Assembly: GCA_027619975.1 (NCBI GenBank)
Contig: JAQCGX010000030.1
Location: forward strand, 1-41,372
Length of the DNA stretch: 41,372 nucleotides
Direction of reading: 5' to 3'
From: Nitrospinota bacterium
GTDB lineage: Bacteria; Nitrospinota; Nitrospinia; Nitrospinales; VA-1
Shown in pieces: positions 15,460 to 34,221 of the stretch. Position numbers and translations under genes: made by a program. The notes under the pieces are model-generated. The model did no database searches and had not been told where the DNA came from. It saw only the letters and a program-made list of their open reading frames with translations. Every line of letters starts with the position of its first letter. Within the stretch, counting starts at the first letter, position 1.

Positions 15460-16707
15460 TTATGCGGCGGAGGGAGGAGACACTTGTTGTTCTGACTGCC
15501 ATTTGTCTTTTTGCACAATATTGACATGCGCTCCCACAGGCACCACCTTCGCCAGGAATTGCAAATACCAGCCCTGTATATTTGGGCATCCCGCACTGCC
15601 GTTTCGCCAATCGAAATTCTTTTTGTAAAACTCATTGACCTTCTGGATATTGACCCCGTGAATCCCATAACTTCCCTTGACAGGCTCGCCCACCTTCTTG
15701 AGCCCCATCCACCAACGGCCAATATCGTGTTCCTCATGGCCGAAGGGAATCGCGCGGACACGGGTTTTGCCGTTGAGCGTTTCCTTTTTATACCAGGTGG
15801 GTTTAAAAACTTTATTTACAATTTCATATTCGCCGGCGGGAGTTTCCTCACCGGTGCGTCCAAAAATCGCCTCGGTTTCGAGGATTTTTTCATTATCGTA
15901 ATACACCCGAATCACCCCGCTTTCAATGACCCCCACAATATACCAAAGCTCCGGTCGGCTTTTGTAGCTTGCAATGTTGCGATCATTGAACACCAGCGAT
16001 ACCTGGTCCCCCTTTTTAACATATTTTGTCCGGGGATCCTGGTAGATTTGTTTTAAAATGTATTTAAAATTTTCAGTGACCTGATTATTGAGGATCATCT
16101 GCTCAACCATGCGACTGAGCTCGACATTGTTTTTGCGGGTTTCCGCCAGTTTCAAGGACGTGGCGGTCAGGTTTTCATTAATGTGTTCAAAATCCTCTTT
16201 GGAGACCAGACCCACGCGGTTCATGCCTGCATAATAAGCCATATCTATTTCCCGCTGCGTCTCGGAATCAACACCAAACTGGTAAATCATCCAGGTGGCT
16301 GTCCCCAGAATCAAAAAGGCCATGGCTGTCAATTTCAAATACCGCTTGACCCCCAGAGACAACCGGTACCAGGCGACTTCAAACTTGACCTTTTTATCCT
16401 GCGCCTTCAACGGGCTGAAACTGGCATTGCCAAATTTTTCCAGCAAACGACGTTCCAATGAGGTCAACCGCACAGGGTTCCCCTGTAGCTTTTCAATGAT
16501 CCAATACAGGTTTTCCCGCGTTTTGCGGTCGTAACTCCCACGCGGATCTTTATTGGCAATCAGATTATAGTCGGGAACATTAAGAACCGCCAGCTTGCGA
16601 TCGGTAGAAGCGCTGGAAAAGCTTGAACTGGCAGAGGATGTACTTTCCAATGGATTCACTTTATCTAGATCCTTTTCAACCAATTGAATTATACGGGCTT
16701 GCGTCAT
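15460..16707 (-). CDS. Membrane-anchored L,D-transpeptidase (YkuD domain) with bactofilin-shared N-terminal module
   Basis: This 415-residue protein has three parts. Residues 1-120 are cytoplasmic and include a module (K53-L100) that matches the N-terminus of the neighbouring bactofilin. A single membrane helix lies at about 123-143. The periplasmic part has a helical stretch (150-225) and a YkuD domain (about 255-398). The catalytic region shows YGIHGVN with H350 and GSAGCPNI with C374. The residues around Cys differ from the usual S-H-G-C-x-R, with Ala for His and Asn for Arg. L,D-transpeptidases make 3-3 cross-links or attach proteins to peptidoglycan. It follows bactofilin 2 by 71 bases. 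Confidence 0.85.
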   Translation of the reverse strand: MTQARIIQLVEKDLDKVNPLESTSSASSSFSSASTDRKLAVLNVPDYNLIANKDPRGSYDRKTRENLYWIIEKLQGNPVRLTSLERRLLEKFGNASFSPLKAQDKKVKFEVAWYRLSLGVKRYLKLTAMAFLILGTATWMIYQFGVDSETQREIDMAYYAGMNRVGLVSKEDFEHINENLTATSLKLAETRKNNVELSRMVEQMILNNQVTENFKYILKQIYQDPRTKYVKKGDQVSLVFNDRNIASYKSRPELWYIVGVIESGVIRVYYDNEKILETEAIFGRTGEETPAGEYEIVNKVFKPTWYKKETLNGKTRVRAIPFGHEEHDIGRWWMGLKKVGEPVKGSYGIHGVNIQKVNEFYKKNFDWRNGSAGCPNIQGWYLQFLAKVVPVGAHVNIVQKDKWQSEQQVSPPSAA

Positions 16708-16778
16708 TTAATCTTAACGCGGAATCAACGAATTTCAAAGTAAATTGTTGTAATTATGGTAACCAGGTAGAAAAATAA

Positions 16779-17339
16779 TCACCCCGCAGAGAGGAGTTTC
16801 CAGGGCTTGGACTTTTCCTGGATGGCAATTTCTCCGGGTTGGTTGGGCATGGAGCATCGGCCTTCAAAAAACGCTCCTTCTTCGACGTGGAGCGAGGGGG
16901 TATAAATGCTTCCACGCACCGTAGATCCCTTACAGAGGCGAACCTGAACCAGGGCCTGGATATTGCCTTCGATAAGTCCCCGGCAAATCACCGTTGCCGC
17001 AGATATACTGGCTAAAACCTTGCCCTCGGGTTCAACCGTCAAGGTCTGGTTGATGAGGATCTCCCCTTCGAAATTTCCTTCCACGCGCACTGCCCCCGGA
17101 TGGAGAATTTTCCCTTCCGATTCGGTTCCTCGCCTGATCAGAATGCCGAAGTTGGCGCCTGCGAATTTCTTAAATATCTTTTTTTCCTGGCGGGAACATT
17201 TGCGACCCTGATCCCCCAGTTTTTGGATGATTTTGTACAACACCTCCCGCGTTTCACGGTCGTAGTCCCCGGCAGGATCTTTATCCTGCATAAAGTCAAA
17301 TTCCTGCGGGGTTATAATGTTGAGTTTTGGATTTCCCAT
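16779..17339 (-). CDS. Bactofilin with an extra N-terminal module (bactofilin 2)
   Basis: This 186-residue protein has a bactofilin beta-helix core at about 75-170, recognised by the repeating pattern VRVEGNFEGEILINQTLTV, then GKVLASISAATVICRGLIEGNI and the SSLHVEEGAFFEG-like end (here PSLHVEEGAFFEGRC). Bactofilins polymerise into cytoplasmic filaments that scaffold cell-wall enzymes or chromosome-segregation factors. Residues 1-70 are an added module (DKDPAGDYDRETREVLYKII), also present in the L,D-transpeptidase downstream. It starts seven bases after the ParA-like gene, with no ribosome binding site, so translational coupling is likely. Confidence 0.88.
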   Translation of the reverse strand: MGNPKLNIITPQEFDFMQDKDPAGDYDRETREVLYKIIQKLGDQGRKCSRQEKKIFKKFAGANFGILIRRGTESEGKILHPGAVRVEGNFEGEILINQTLTVEPEGKVLASISAATVICRGLIEGNIQALVQVRLCKGSTVRGSIYTPSLHVEEGAFFEGRCSMPNQPGEIAIQEKSKPWKLLSAG

Positions 17340-17346
17340 AAGCAGA

Positions 17347-18663
17347 TCAGCTGAAACTTGCGGCCAGACGACTTATTCCAGCCGCCAGACTGGATTTCCC
17401 TTTATTGTGAAGATATTTCAGAATTTCTTCATCCGAGCTCGCCAGGGTCGGGCTGGATGCATTTTCCGACATAATACTTTTTGCTACAAGGTCCAGTCGG
17501 CTTTTCAATTCCCTGTCCTTATCGTAAAATAAGGCCCCGCGGTTATTGGTAATATTAATGATTCTGTGCTGAGGCATCATTCCCACGATGCATATACGGT
17601 TTTTGTATTCTTCATATTTATCCAGCGTATCCAGGTATTCTCGTAACCGGCGCAGACAATCTTTGATTTCATTCGCTCCCTGACAGCGATTGAAAAAAAC
17701 ACCTATTTTTTTATTACGCAGAGACTCCGCGATCGCCTGCTGGCCTTTTGCCGCTACCAGCCGGTTGACATGGGCCTTGTCAAGGCCCGTCAAGCGGTCC
17801 TGGTTAAAATCATCAAAAAAGTCTTCATAATAATCAATGAAGGAATGCAGGGCGTCCAGGCTTCCGTTGATGGCGATGACGTTACTCATGTCAAACACCA
17901 AAATGACCTGGTCTATGGAATTCATGAGCGAGGAAAGATGATTGACGCCTCCGGCAGGCGTGTCTAAAATTATGTGATCAAACTTCCCATAAACCTCGTT
18001 GAGAAACTCCAGAAACAGCAACAGGAAGGCGGGCTCGTTGATTCTTTTGCGATGATTTTTTTTGCCCATGATCGGCACTTCGCCGCCGATAATGGAGAAA
18101 CCATACTCTTCAATAAAATTGACAAACTCCGCCACCATTGGCCGCGCCGCCTCTTGAAAAACGCCCAAAATGGCCTTAAATTCAATAGCATCTATTTTAG
18201 CTAAAATGGGCAATAGAGCTTTTATGTGCGACGGACGTTCGATTTTTCCCCGCTGGAGAAATAAATCGTAAACTTCGTTGCCAAACTTAAAATCTGAAAA
18301 ATAAAACAGGTTGGTATTGATTGTCTTATAAACAGACAGGCTTTTTTCCAGCTGACGGCTGTTGGAGGCAAGATGTCCTTCCAGATAATTTTTGAAGGTA
18401 CTGATGATCTGGTAAAGGTTTTGCAGAATTTCGGCCTGATGGGTTTTGCTGGCAAGGATCTCAAAAAGGTCGTAAAACGTTTTACGCGGATGACTGTCCA
18501 GAATGCTGGAGATGGTGGGCAGGCGCAAGTCCAGGTCCACCAGGCAAACCCTGTTCTTCAAACCCTGCCCGGCCAGCGCCCGCGTCAGGGACGCGGCGGT
18601 ATTAATGGACAATGTGGTCTTTCCAATCCCGCCCTTGGGGCCAATGATTGAAATGATTGCCAT
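17347..18663 (-). CDS. MinD/ParA-family ATPase, long form
   Basis: A 438-residue P-loop ATPase. The deviant Walker A GPKGGIGKTTLSIN is at 8-21, with both signature lysines (K10, K15). VDLDLRLP (switch region) and HIILDTPAGG (Walker B region) follow. It is much longer than typical ParA/MinD (about 260-270). Residues about 60-230 contain a large helical insertion between the switch I region and Walker B. The C-terminus (about 400-438) is a Ser/Lys-rich tail, possibly amphipathic (SLAAGISRLAASF), which could bind membrane or DNA. It starts immediately after the rsmI stop. Its place before bactofilin 2 and the L,D-transpeptidase suggests it positions a cell-wall machine rather than a plasmid. Confidence 0.82.
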   Translation of the reverse strand: MAIISIIGPKGGIGKTTLSINTAASLTRALAGQGLKNRVCLVDLDLRLPTISSILDSHPRKTFYDLFEILASKTHQAEILQNLYQIISTFKNYLEGHLASNSRQLEKSLSVYKTINTNLFYFSDFKFGNEVYDLFLQRGKIERPSHIKALLPILAKIDAIEFKAILGVFQEAARPMVAEFVNFIEEYGFSIIGGEVPIMGKKNHRKRINEPAFLLLFLEFLNEVYGKFDHIILDTPAGGVNHLSSLMNSIDQVILVFDMSNVIAINGSLDALHSFIDYYEDFFDDFNQDRLTGLDKAHVNRLVAAKGQQAIAESLRNKKIGVFFNRCQGANEIKDCLRRLREYLDTLDKYEEYKNRICIVGMMPQHRIINITNNRGALFYDKDRELKSRLDLVAKSIMSENASSPTLASSDEEILKYLHNKGKSSLAAGISRLAASFS

Positions 18664-24910: not shown

Positions 24911-26434
24911 ATGACCCAACCCGCAAACCGAATATACGCCCTGCTCTTCAAAGTCCTGATATTGGCATACGCATTCAATCAATTTTCCCTGATCTCCGCC
25001 GATACAGATCTCTGGGGACATCTCAAATTCGGGGAAGCGGCCTGGATGCAAAATTCATTACCGTCCACGGACCCATACTCCTATACAGCCGAGGGCCTGC
25101 CCTGGGTCAATCACGAATGGCTGGCAGAAATTTTTTATTATCTGATTTATGCGGCGCTGGGTTCCACAGGTCTTCTGGTTTTCAAGCTGGCACTGGGACT
25201 ATTCATTATTCATCTGCTCTCCTCACTGTATTTTGCCAAAGAAAATAACGCGTACATTTACCTGCTCATTTTCTTTCTTCTGGTCACCGTGATAGCTCCC
25301 GGGTTCATGACCCGCCCTCACCTCTTAACGTTTCTCTTTCTAACCCTGCTTGTCGTGCAGTTGCAACAATTTTTTGACGGCAATTTAAAGGCCCTGGCCT
25401 GGTCCCCGCTTTTAATGCTCGTTTGGGCGAATTGTCATGGTGGCGTGGTGGCGGGAATAGGCATCTTCGGTGCGGTGGCCGCAGTGGAGGGAGGGCGTTG
25501 CCTCTATACCGGAGAAAAACACGGCAGGATTTTATTGGGTTATTTTACCCTCTCCTGCCTGGCTCTTCTGGTCAACCCCGAAGGTTACAAACTATGGGTA
25601 TTTTTTTTCGAGTCACTCTCCGTGCCGCGCGACATTGGCGAATGGAACCCGGTCCCCCTGTCGGGCACCGGGTTTCTGGAGTTCAAAATCCTGACAGCCC
25701 TGTTTGTGGCCTCGTTGTTTGTTCCAGGGCGTAAACGCCTGTGGGAAGTTCTCATCATCGGTCTGGCAATCATTTACGGTTTCAAACACCAGCGCCACAC
25801 CGTGCTCGCGGCAATCGTCATGATCCCCTACCTGCCGCTCAAGATGGCAGAATTCTCGAGACGCTTTCACATCCAGGAAACCCTGGACGGCCTGTCAACT
25901 CAGGTAAGCATGGTGTTGAAATCAGCAATCGTTATATTAACCGTGGGGCATTTATTTGTCGGGCTCAGCAAGTACCAGACCAGTGACTTCAAAATTCTGG
26001 TGGAACCGGGGCGCTACCCCACCTACGCCGCACAGTTTCTGCTGGCAAACGGAATCAACGGCAATGCTCTCGTCCCCTTCGACTGGGGCGAATATTTTAT
26101 CTGGAAACTGCCCGAGTCCAGGGTTTCCGTCGACGGCAGGTTCCGTACCGTCTACCCGGACAAAATCCTGCGACAACACATGGCCTTCACCGCCGGCCAG
26201 CCGGAAGGAGACGGCTTGCTGAAAGATTTCCCGACCGATCTTGTTGTCATACGCAAATCGGACCCCAATCGGAATTTTATGGAAAATAAAACCGAATGGC
26301 TCAAGTTTTATGAAGATCCACTGGCGAAAATCTATATAAGGAAATCCCAGCCGCCGGGCCCCACCGAGGAAAAGTTTCTGCACAAAAAACTCGTTGACCC
26401 TCGCGACCCGCCGCCGCACGTGTTTCCGGGGTAA
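24911..26434 (+). CDS. Polytopic membrane protein, GT-C glycosyltransferase-like
   Basis: This 507-residue protein has about ten hydrophobic segments over residues 10-370 and a soluble C-terminal part. Near the N-terminus is SADTDLWGHLKFGEAAW, then STDPYSYTAEGLPWVNHEWL. An acidic pair in the first loop followed by such a segment is typical of GT-C-fold enzymes and related uncharacterised membrane proteins, which use polyprenyl-linked sugars. The C-terminal part has LVPFDWGEYFIWKLPESRVSVDGRFRTVYP in the genome, common to this group. No sugar-pathway genes are nearby, so the function stays open. The DUF2461 gene follows after two bases. Confidence 0.65.
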   Translation: MTQPANRIYALLFKVLILAYAFNQFSLISADTDLWGHLKFGEAAWMQNSLPSTDPYSYTAEGLPWVNHEWLAEIFYYLIYAALGSTGLLVFKLALGLFIIHLLSSLYFAKENNAYIYLLIFFLLVTVIAPGFMTRPHLLTFLFLTLLVVQLQQFFDGNLKALAWSPLLMLVWANCHGGVVAGIGIFGAVAAVEGGRCLYTGEKHGRILLGYFTLSCLALLVNPEGYKLWVFFFESLSVPRDIGEWNPVPLSGTGFLEFKILTALFVASLFVPGRKRLWEVLIIGLAIIYGFKHQRHTVLAAIVMIPYLPLKMAEFSRRFHIQETLDGLSTQVSMVLKSAIVILTVGHLFVGLSKYQTSDFKILVEPGRYPTYAAQFLLANGINGNALVPFDWGEYFIWKLPESRVSVDGRFRTVYPDKILRQHMAFTAGQPEGDGLLKDFPTDLVVIRKSDPNRNFMENKTEWLKFYEDPLAKIYIRKSQPPGPTEEKFLHKKLVDPRDPPPHVFPG

Positions 26435-27547: not shown

Positions 27548-28909
27548 ATGAATTCGAAGGACATTCTTTGGCAACAGTGTTTGAAGGAAATCGAAGAACA
27601 AATACTGCCGGAGAACTACACCGCCTGGTTCGCTTCCACTTATCCTTACGCTTTACATAACGAATCGCTCACGATTGCCGTTCCCAATAATTTTTATAAA
27701 AAGTGTCTGCAGGAAAATTATCAGGATTTGATCGAGTCCACTCTTGAATCTCTTTTGAAAAAGAGAACTCGGGTGGACTTCTTCGTCGACAGTGAACCGC
27801 GAGGCAACAATCAGGCGCAGAACGCGCTTACTAATAACAACAAAACCGAGCAAATCATACCCGCCCCGAGTAATGATATCTGGGACCTCAGGATAGAATC
27901 TTCATTAAATCCCAAATATAAATTTTCTAATTTTGTCGTTGGGTCCAGCAATCAATTCGCCCATGCCGCAGCGCTGGCAGTGGGCAATAATCCGGCGATG
28001 GCCTACAACCCGCTATTTATTTACGGAGCGGTCGGTCTGGGAAAAACTCATCTTATGCATGCCATCGGTCACCAGATTCTGGAAAATGATCCCAACGCCA
28101 GAGTCCGATACCTGTCAGCAGAAACGTTTACGGTGGATTTGATCGAGTCTCTGAAAAGGGACGAGATGCCGGCATTTCGAAAACGCTATCGTCCTCTTGA
28201 CGTATTGCTGATAGACGATATCCAATTCCTGGCAGGTAAGGACCGAACCCAGGAAGAGTTCTTCTATACCTTTAACACCTTGTACGAATCTCACAAGCAG
28301 ATCGTCATCTCCAGTGACCGGTATCCGAAGGATATGCAAAACATTGAAGAACGTCTGCGCTCGCGCTTTGATTCCGGTGTTGTCGCGGATATCAACCACC
28401 CGGATGTGGAAACCAAGGTCGCTATTCTGTACAAAAAAGCCGATATCCACAAAAAAGTTATTCCCCAGGATGTCGCCATGTTCATCGCCAGCAACATCAA
28501 ATCTAATATAAGGGAACTGGAAGGACTGCTCCTTCGAATCATCGCCTATGCCTCGTTCACGCACCGGGAAATTTCCCTGGACCTGGCAAAAGAAATCTTG
28601 AAGGAATTTTCCTACGATAAAACCAAAAACTTCACCGTTCCAAATATCATGAAAATCGTGGCGGCCTATTTCAATCTCAAGGTTGCGGATTTGAAGTCCA
28701 AAAAACGGACCCGGGAAATTTCTTTTCCCCGCCAAATTGCGATGTATCTGTGTCGTGAATATACCAAATGCTCTCTCCCGGATATCGGCAAACAGTTTGG
28801 CGGAAAAGACCACACCACGGTTATTTTCTCCCACAAAAAAATTACCAAGAGCGTTCTGGAAAATAACCAGTTAGCCAAGAATATACAAGACATTACCGAA
28901 AAGATTGAA

Positions 28910-28918
<9 letters not shown>
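27548..28918 (+). CDS. dnaA: Chromosomal replication initiator DnaA
   Basis: DnaA binds 9-bp boxes at the origin, melts the DNA and recruits the helicase. The 456-residue protein has domain I (1-80, ILWQQCLKEIEEQI and YTAWFAS), a variable linker (82-115), and the AAA+ domain III with Walker A GAVGLGKT at 160-167 and Walker B VLLIDDIQF. Domain IV carries the DNA-binding signature with DIGKQFGGKDHTTVIFSHKKI. Its stop codon lies within the first of a row of DnaA-box-like 9-mers. The gene runs towards the proposed origin and gyrB. Confidence 0.98.
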
Positions 28919-31750
<2,832 letters not shown>

Positions 31751-31769
31751 TTCAGCGTCACGCTGGACC
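31751..31769. repeat. Short hairpin-forming repeat, copy 1
   Basis: TTCAGCGTCACGCTGGACC starts at the base after the gyrB stop and forms a CAGCG/CGCTG hairpin. A copy differing by one base is at 37792-37810. Confidence 0.55.
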
Positions 31770-31803
31770 TGATTTATTATAATGAGCCTTTAAAGGAAAA
31801 ACA

Positions 31804-34221
<2,418 letters not shown>

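Follow-up and report, generated by a model that had tools for sequence, protein, structure and literature searches.

Background

Bactofilins have been found to recruit cell-wall enzymes via the cytoplasmic tails of the latter, as described for PbpC (PMC12448750) and LmdC (PMC10945521). In Caulobacter, a filament of the bactofilin BacA is combined with PbpC, a bitopic wall enzyme whose cytoplasmic N-terminal part serves for recruitment (PMC12448750), and in Hyphomonas and Rhodospirillum BacA and LmdC constitute an operon of a bactofilin and a bitopic wall enzyme, the latter consisting of a tail, a membrane helix, a periplasmic linker and a C-terminal enzyme domain (PMC10945521). A ParA/MinD-superfamily ATPase is tied to a bactofilin in Myxococcus, where a dedicated binding domain connects ParA and BacP (PMC5703909). 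Finally, the bactofilin CcmA of the Helicobacter shape complex works with periplasmic wall enzymes (PMC9507126). Literature searches that combined Nitrospina with bactofilin recovered only a broad phylogeny review, and those that combined bactofilin with YkuD only Caulobacter stalk synthesis.

The locus described here was found in a window of 41,372 nucleotides (the whole stretch of DNA that was analysed) from a member of the Nitrospinota. It encodes a MinD-like ATPase, a second bactofilin (Bac2) and a YkuD-domain enzyme, further referred to as the triad, of which the latter two share a module of 63 residues.

The locus and its products

The main features of the triad are the following:

17347..18663, reverse strand: MinD/ParA-like ATPase, 438 aa, co-inherited with the module-bearing enzyme (PF13614, E = 2.4e-11; co-distribution)
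16779..17339, reverse strand: bactofilin 2, 186 aa, with module, bactofilin beta-helix and short tail (PF04519, E = 5.5e-23; model matches 2n3d)
16854..17141, reverse strand: predicted bactofilin polymerisation core of Bac2 (PF04519, own-genome search)
15460..16707, reverse strand: bitopic YkuD-domain protein, 415 aa, putative L,D-transpeptidase, with cytoplasmic module, membrane helix, linker and YkuD domain (PF03734, E = 1.8e-12; order-wide alignment A5)
16267..16341, reverse strand: sole predicted transmembrane helix of the YkuD protein, about aa 123-147 (hydropathy and flanking Lys/Arg; predicted topology)
15517..15927, reverse strand: YkuD catalytic domain, aa 261-397, with invariant His350 and Cys374 (Pfam; alignment A5)

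The gene order rsmG-parA-parB-bac1-rsmI-(MinD-like ATPase)-bac2-enzyme-argH is conserved across the order. The intergenic gaps between rsmI and argH are short in the window (0, 7, 71 and 50 bases), which suggests that the genes are part of one transcript. The outgroup families of the class possess parA-parB-bac1, two of them with rsmI next to it, and none of the triad genes is found there; the triad was therefore probably assembled in the ancestor of the window's order. The genes dnaA, gyrB and gyrA (window 27548-34221) are located about 5 kb from rsmG-parA-parB, which places the triad in a likely replication-origin region. The window also holds an open frame of 507 aa (24911-26434) that had no Pfam match at 1e-5. 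In four of the recovered loci (L121, L122, L123 and L124) bac2 and the enzyme gene were separated by about 0.4 to 1.3 kb, and one genome (G052) contained two diverged locus copies on separate contigs (L104 and L105), representing either a duplication or a mixed assembly.

Bac2 is a bactofilin by its PF04519 score (81.5 bits, against a cut-off of 27.9) and by the match of its AlphaFold model to 2n3d (prob 1.00, TMt 0.87). A short N-terminal membrane-targeting peptide (MFSKKKK-like) is common in bactofilins, although it is not defining for all. No MF-K/R peptide was found conserved in the Bac2 alignment, the N-terminus being taken up by the folded module (MGNPKLNII...). The orthologues share a conserved C-terminal tail (LLSAG, LFRAG or KKTG; window 16779-16800, alignment A4) past a low-confidence linker. 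A third bactofilin domain, without the module, is encoded outside the triad in an open frame of about 670-700 codons (own genome, contig C3:9460-9738), and similar ones occur in most of the searched genomes.

The enzyme belongs to the YkuD family (PF03734, 48.5 bits against a cut-off of 23.4, covering domain positions 8-146 of 146). His350 and Cys374 were retained in all 27 aligned sequences and are, on basis of the motif, presumably the catalytic cysteine of YkuD and its upstream histidine. YkuD enzymes usually carry the motif S/T-H-G-C. Here it reads SAGCPN in 27 out of 27 sequences, with Ala for His, so that transpeptidase rather than carboxypeptidase activity is not assured and the protein may be either of the two. 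Searches of PDB sequences yielded no homologues of the enzyme and the catalytic assignment therefore rests on Pfam and the motif. The sole hydrophobic stretch is found downstream of the module, behind a stretch rich in lysine and arginine, and has a modest hydropathy peak (1.46). The sequence is thus consistent with the cytoplasmic side to which the preliminary description of this locus had assigned the module, on a predicted topology.

The ATPase carries a deviant Walker A motif (GPKGGIGKTT) at its N-terminus and matches the AAA_31/CbiA families (PF13614). Against the MinD equivalog TIGR01968 it scored 40.7 bits, well below the cut-off of 212.9, and it is therefore considered MinD-like and not MinD. 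Roughly 130 residues separate the N-terminal Walker region from the next match, and the orthologues have a conserved, RIASSL-like C-terminal tail.

A module shared by Bac2 and the enzyme

Residues 20-67 of Bac2 and 53-100 of the YkuD protein align without gaps and are identical at 22 of the 48 positions, precisely the number that was reported in the preliminary description, whose coordinates (16408-17282) are correct for this core. The gapless homology begins earlier, at residue 5 of Bac2 and residue 38 of the enzyme, so that the complete module comprises 63 residues:

17139..17327, reverse strand: copy carried by bactofilin 2, aa 5-67, predicted to form three helices (shuffle-tested pairwise score; profile match E = 7.8e-29; AlphaFold pLDDT about 90)
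16408..16596, reverse strand: copy carried by the YkuD enzyme, aa 38-100, with the same three helices, preceding the membrane helix (profile match E = 2.6e-27; AlphaFold)

The similarity is real: the pair reaches a local BLOSUM62 score of 123, whereas none of 5,000 shuffles exceeded 71 (mean 32.7, sd 4.9, z = 18.6). At the DNA level 75 out of 144 bases are identical and the match is poorest at third positions (21 of 48), which points to an old homology at the protein level and not to a recent duplication or conversion. The module of Bac2 alone was sufficient to retrieve that of the enzyme in the own genome (E = 3.5e-10). Within 60 related genomes the Bac2 module reached enzyme modules with E-values down to about 6e-14 and the enzyme module reached Bac2 modules with E-values down to about 3e-15. 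An alignment of 36 non-redundant modules gave the consensus KLxxLTxxEYxLLxxKDPxGxYDRxTRExLYxIIxKLxxxxxxxSxxExxLxxKFxxAxFGxL, in which Tyr22 and Glu48 are invariant and helices 2 and 3 are rich in basic residues.

In the AlphaFold2 model of Bac2 (32 sequences, mean pLDDT 88) the module forms three helices ahead of the beta-helix. The same three helices were predicted for the module of the enzyme alone (68 sequences, pLDDT 77 and about 85 inside the module), with near-identical boundaries in module numbering. The KDPxGxYDRxTRE motif corresponds to a loop and the start of helix 2 in the models. No significant match was obtained in Pfam, NCBIfam, PHROG or the PDB sequences (best PDB sequence E = 0.29), nor did Foldseek return a significant fold match in the PDB (best E = 3.3, prob 0.14), in line with the earlier statement that no named domain was known to have this pattern. 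Kinship with the J-domain was considered and rejected, as the resemblance is very weak (2lgw, E = 0.96; 3ucs, prob 0.07) and the turn that joins helices 2 and 3 lacks the HPD motif. The module thus appears to be a new domain family, without a counterpart in the searched libraries.

Distribution of the module

A profile search of the own genome recovered exactly two copies of the module and, with E-values up to 10, no third module-bearing protein. Weak sequence matches (E about 0.1) to proteins of 405-474 aa in or near the genus disappeared under the profile search. Within the phylum, 48 of 77 genomes carry the module, all 48 within the window's own order, and the profile detected none in the remaining families of the class. 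Extension of the profile search that the preliminary description had proposed to 387 genomes, most of them outside the phylum, returned the same 48 carriers and no others. The module is confined to Bac2 and the YkuD enzyme in all of these. The co-occurrence that had been anticipated was observed in 35 of the 48 genomes, with nine more having only the module-bearing enzyme and four only Bac2.

To cover a wider set, 85,000 named genomes were scanned using short patterns, a procedure that distant relatives could escape. Patterns from the enzyme-module alignment identified 36 loci, 35 of them under the title Nitrospinota or a Nitrospina-related one, the other under 'Nitrospirae bacterium SZUA-226'. 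A scan of the same genomes with full Bac2 gave nothing, because short Bac2 patterns are poorly conserved. No match to the module was found in plasmids. In trees the modules group according to their host protein, no more than two changes being required, so that a single ancient duplication suffices to explain the two copies.

Loss of triad genes

Mapping of the triad on a tree built from ParB, RsmI and ArgH indicated that Bac2 was lost alone four times (at least four independent losses). In eight of the nine genomes without Bac2 the locus is contiguous and the ATPase is followed by the enzyme, leaving no space for Bac2; in G004, the remaining one, a contig end carries the last part of the ATPase next to the enzyme. 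On the same tree the ATPase and the enzyme were jointly lost twice (once in G005/G013 and once in G014/G018) with retention of the Bac2 between them, which in these four genomes is directly positioned between rsmI and argH; neither of the lost genes was found elsewhere in them. This loss around an intervening gene implies that adjacency alone does not explain the pairing of ATPase and enzyme. Further genomes lack all three triad genes, and in G010 a remnant of 102 codons of the enzyme's catalytic end remains between rsmI and argH (L185 6763-7068), the remainder of the triad, including ATPase and Bac2, having been deleted. One genome (G033) was excluded from the loss counts, as its contig ends at rsmI.

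Wherever contiguous sequence could be checked, a genome had either both the ATPase and the enzyme or neither of them. The enzyme was lost independently five times, each time together with the ATPase, versus about one of five for Bac2. A sign test on these five pairs, three of which are whole-triad deletions, gave p = 0.0625; so few pairs cannot attain significance, and the co-loss is no more than suggestive. The tie between enzyme and ATPase is nevertheless seen to be tighter than the one between enzyme and Bac2.

Possible functional association of the module

The preliminary description proposed that the module mediates the association of Bac2 and the enzyme. That proposal is supported in so far as the module is real, unnamed, conserved, present only in these two neighbours and, judged from the sequence, cytoplasmic in the enzyme. 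As the whole story it does not hold: a link that is exclusively direct predicts that the module becomes useless once the partner is gone, and nine genomes keep the enzyme module without Bac2 while four keep the Bac2 module without the enzyme. Direct association of the two proteins is therefore not the sole function.

We consider it probable that the module serves to dock scaffold and enzyme at a single site of the membrane, with the MinD-like ATPase most likely taking part. MinD/ParA-type ATPases commonly position cargo via small cytoplasmic partner regions. The reading that we tentatively favour, with somewhat less than even confidence, is that of a docking domain that brings the filament and the enzyme to a common partner, the candidate MinD-like ATPase being the most plausible one. 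A small three-helix cytoplasmic docking domain would have been duplicated once, before the order radiated, and would now be carried by two proteins of one operon, on a bactofilin filament and on the cytoplasmic tail of a membrane-anchored YkuD enzyme. Both copies would bind the shared cytoplasmic or membrane-associated partner, which might bring filament and enzyme together at a single site of the membrane, where wall cross-linking would then be positioned. ATPase and enzyme would then form the core unit, with Bac2 as an optional scaffold.

The strict co-inheritance of ATPase and enzyme, with the joint losses around a retained Bac2, argues for such ATPase docking. So does the conservation of the enzyme's module, which evolves as slowly as the catalytic domain and comparably to the ATPase (mean distances 0.49, 0.45 and 0.53, respectively), with the Bac2 module evolving about twice as fast (1.1), and which had not decayed after three of the four Bac2 losses. 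Precedents point in the same direction, as bactofilins are bound by the cytoplasmic tails of wall enzymes (PMC12448750, PMC10945521) and ParA is linked to BacP through an adapter (PMC5703909). On the other hand, the Bac2 module is intact in the enzyme-less genomes G005 and G013 (70-74 bits), where it must act without ATPase or enzyme, and the co-loss comprises few pairs, most of them deletions of the complete triad. Moreover, a mirror-tree test singled out no partner, since the ParB control correlated with the enzyme module as well as the ATPase did; the test was for that reason set aside as uninformative.

The main rival is homotypic pairing, in which the module self-associates, Bac2 filaments capture the enzyme by module-module contacts, and homodimers are formed where one of the proteins remains. 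We regard this as possible yet doubtful. The occurrence of one domain in two neighbouring genes, and of both proteins in most carrier genomes, fits with it, and self-association would account for the retention of the module in either protein alone. Two observations after partner loss fit as well: in the oldest Bac2-less clade (one genus, five genomes) the enzyme module is mildly more diverged, with a ratio to the catalytic domain of 1.28-1.54 versus a median of 1.07 elsewhere, and the Bac2 module of the enzyme-less G014 and G018 lacks the KDPxGxYDRxTRE signature, although that of their triad-bearing relative G006 has diverged as well. Persistence of the enzyme module through at least four losses of Bac2, and the good conservation of the Bac2 module in G005 and G013, speak against homotypic pairing, which in addition leaves the strict tie between ATPase and enzyme unexplained.

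It is rather unlikely, though still worth consideration, that the module has its binding partner outside the triad, such as a lipid, a divisome or elongasome protein or Bac1, the ATPase being tied to the enzyme otherwise, for example via its periplasmic or linker parts. The retention of the module by Bac2 where both other genes are gone would be readily explained, and the many basic residues in helices 2 and 3 would suit contact with a membrane or nucleic acid; against this, no candidate partner emerged and the own genome has no further module-bearing protein. A chance similarity, or a functionless passive remnant of a local duplication, is very improbable, for even though a partial tandem duplication is easy between adjacent genes, the shuffle score, the order-wide conservation with invariant positions (which already refutes chance), the confident fold and the persistence through gene losses all contradict it.

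Comparison with described systems

The positioning of a wall enzyme by a bactofilin was already known, and what appears to be new here is the domain family. PbpC contacts the bactofilin polymer by a short peptide at its N-terminus, which also binds as a synthetic version of 13 residues, and BacA has no shared folded domain (PMC12448750), whereas in the present locus both proteins possess a domain of 63 aa and are linked with a MinD-like ATPase. The present enzyme resembles LmdC in its succession of tail, membrane helix, linker and enzyme domain. LmdC, however, has a beta-hairpin on the cytoplasmic side and is an endopeptidase of the M23 type, as opposed to a YkuD enzyme with a three-helix domain that also occurs in the bactofilin. 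In the BacP-PadC-ParA system the bridge is a separate adapter, PadC, and the system serves chromosome segregation, while here the domain resides on the bactofilin and the wall enzyme themselves. The Helicobacter CcmA complex differs in that the partners are Csd proteins, and we know of no shared module in it.

Few worked examples, like PbpC and LmdC, exist of cytoskeletal filaments that tell periplasmic enzymes where to act. The module defines a domain family missing from the searched libraries, in a little-studied phylum, and its presence as a folded domain on both filament and enzyme, together with a co-inherited positioning ATPase, would make a compact three-protein system that hinges on one unit of 63 residues. 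It is even conceivable, albeit on balance doubtful, that the new domain family lets the MinD-like ATPase steer both the bactofilin scaffold and the wall cross-linking enzyme, which would amount to a Min/Par-type positioning of cell-wall remodelling beside the parAB genes of the Nitrospinota.
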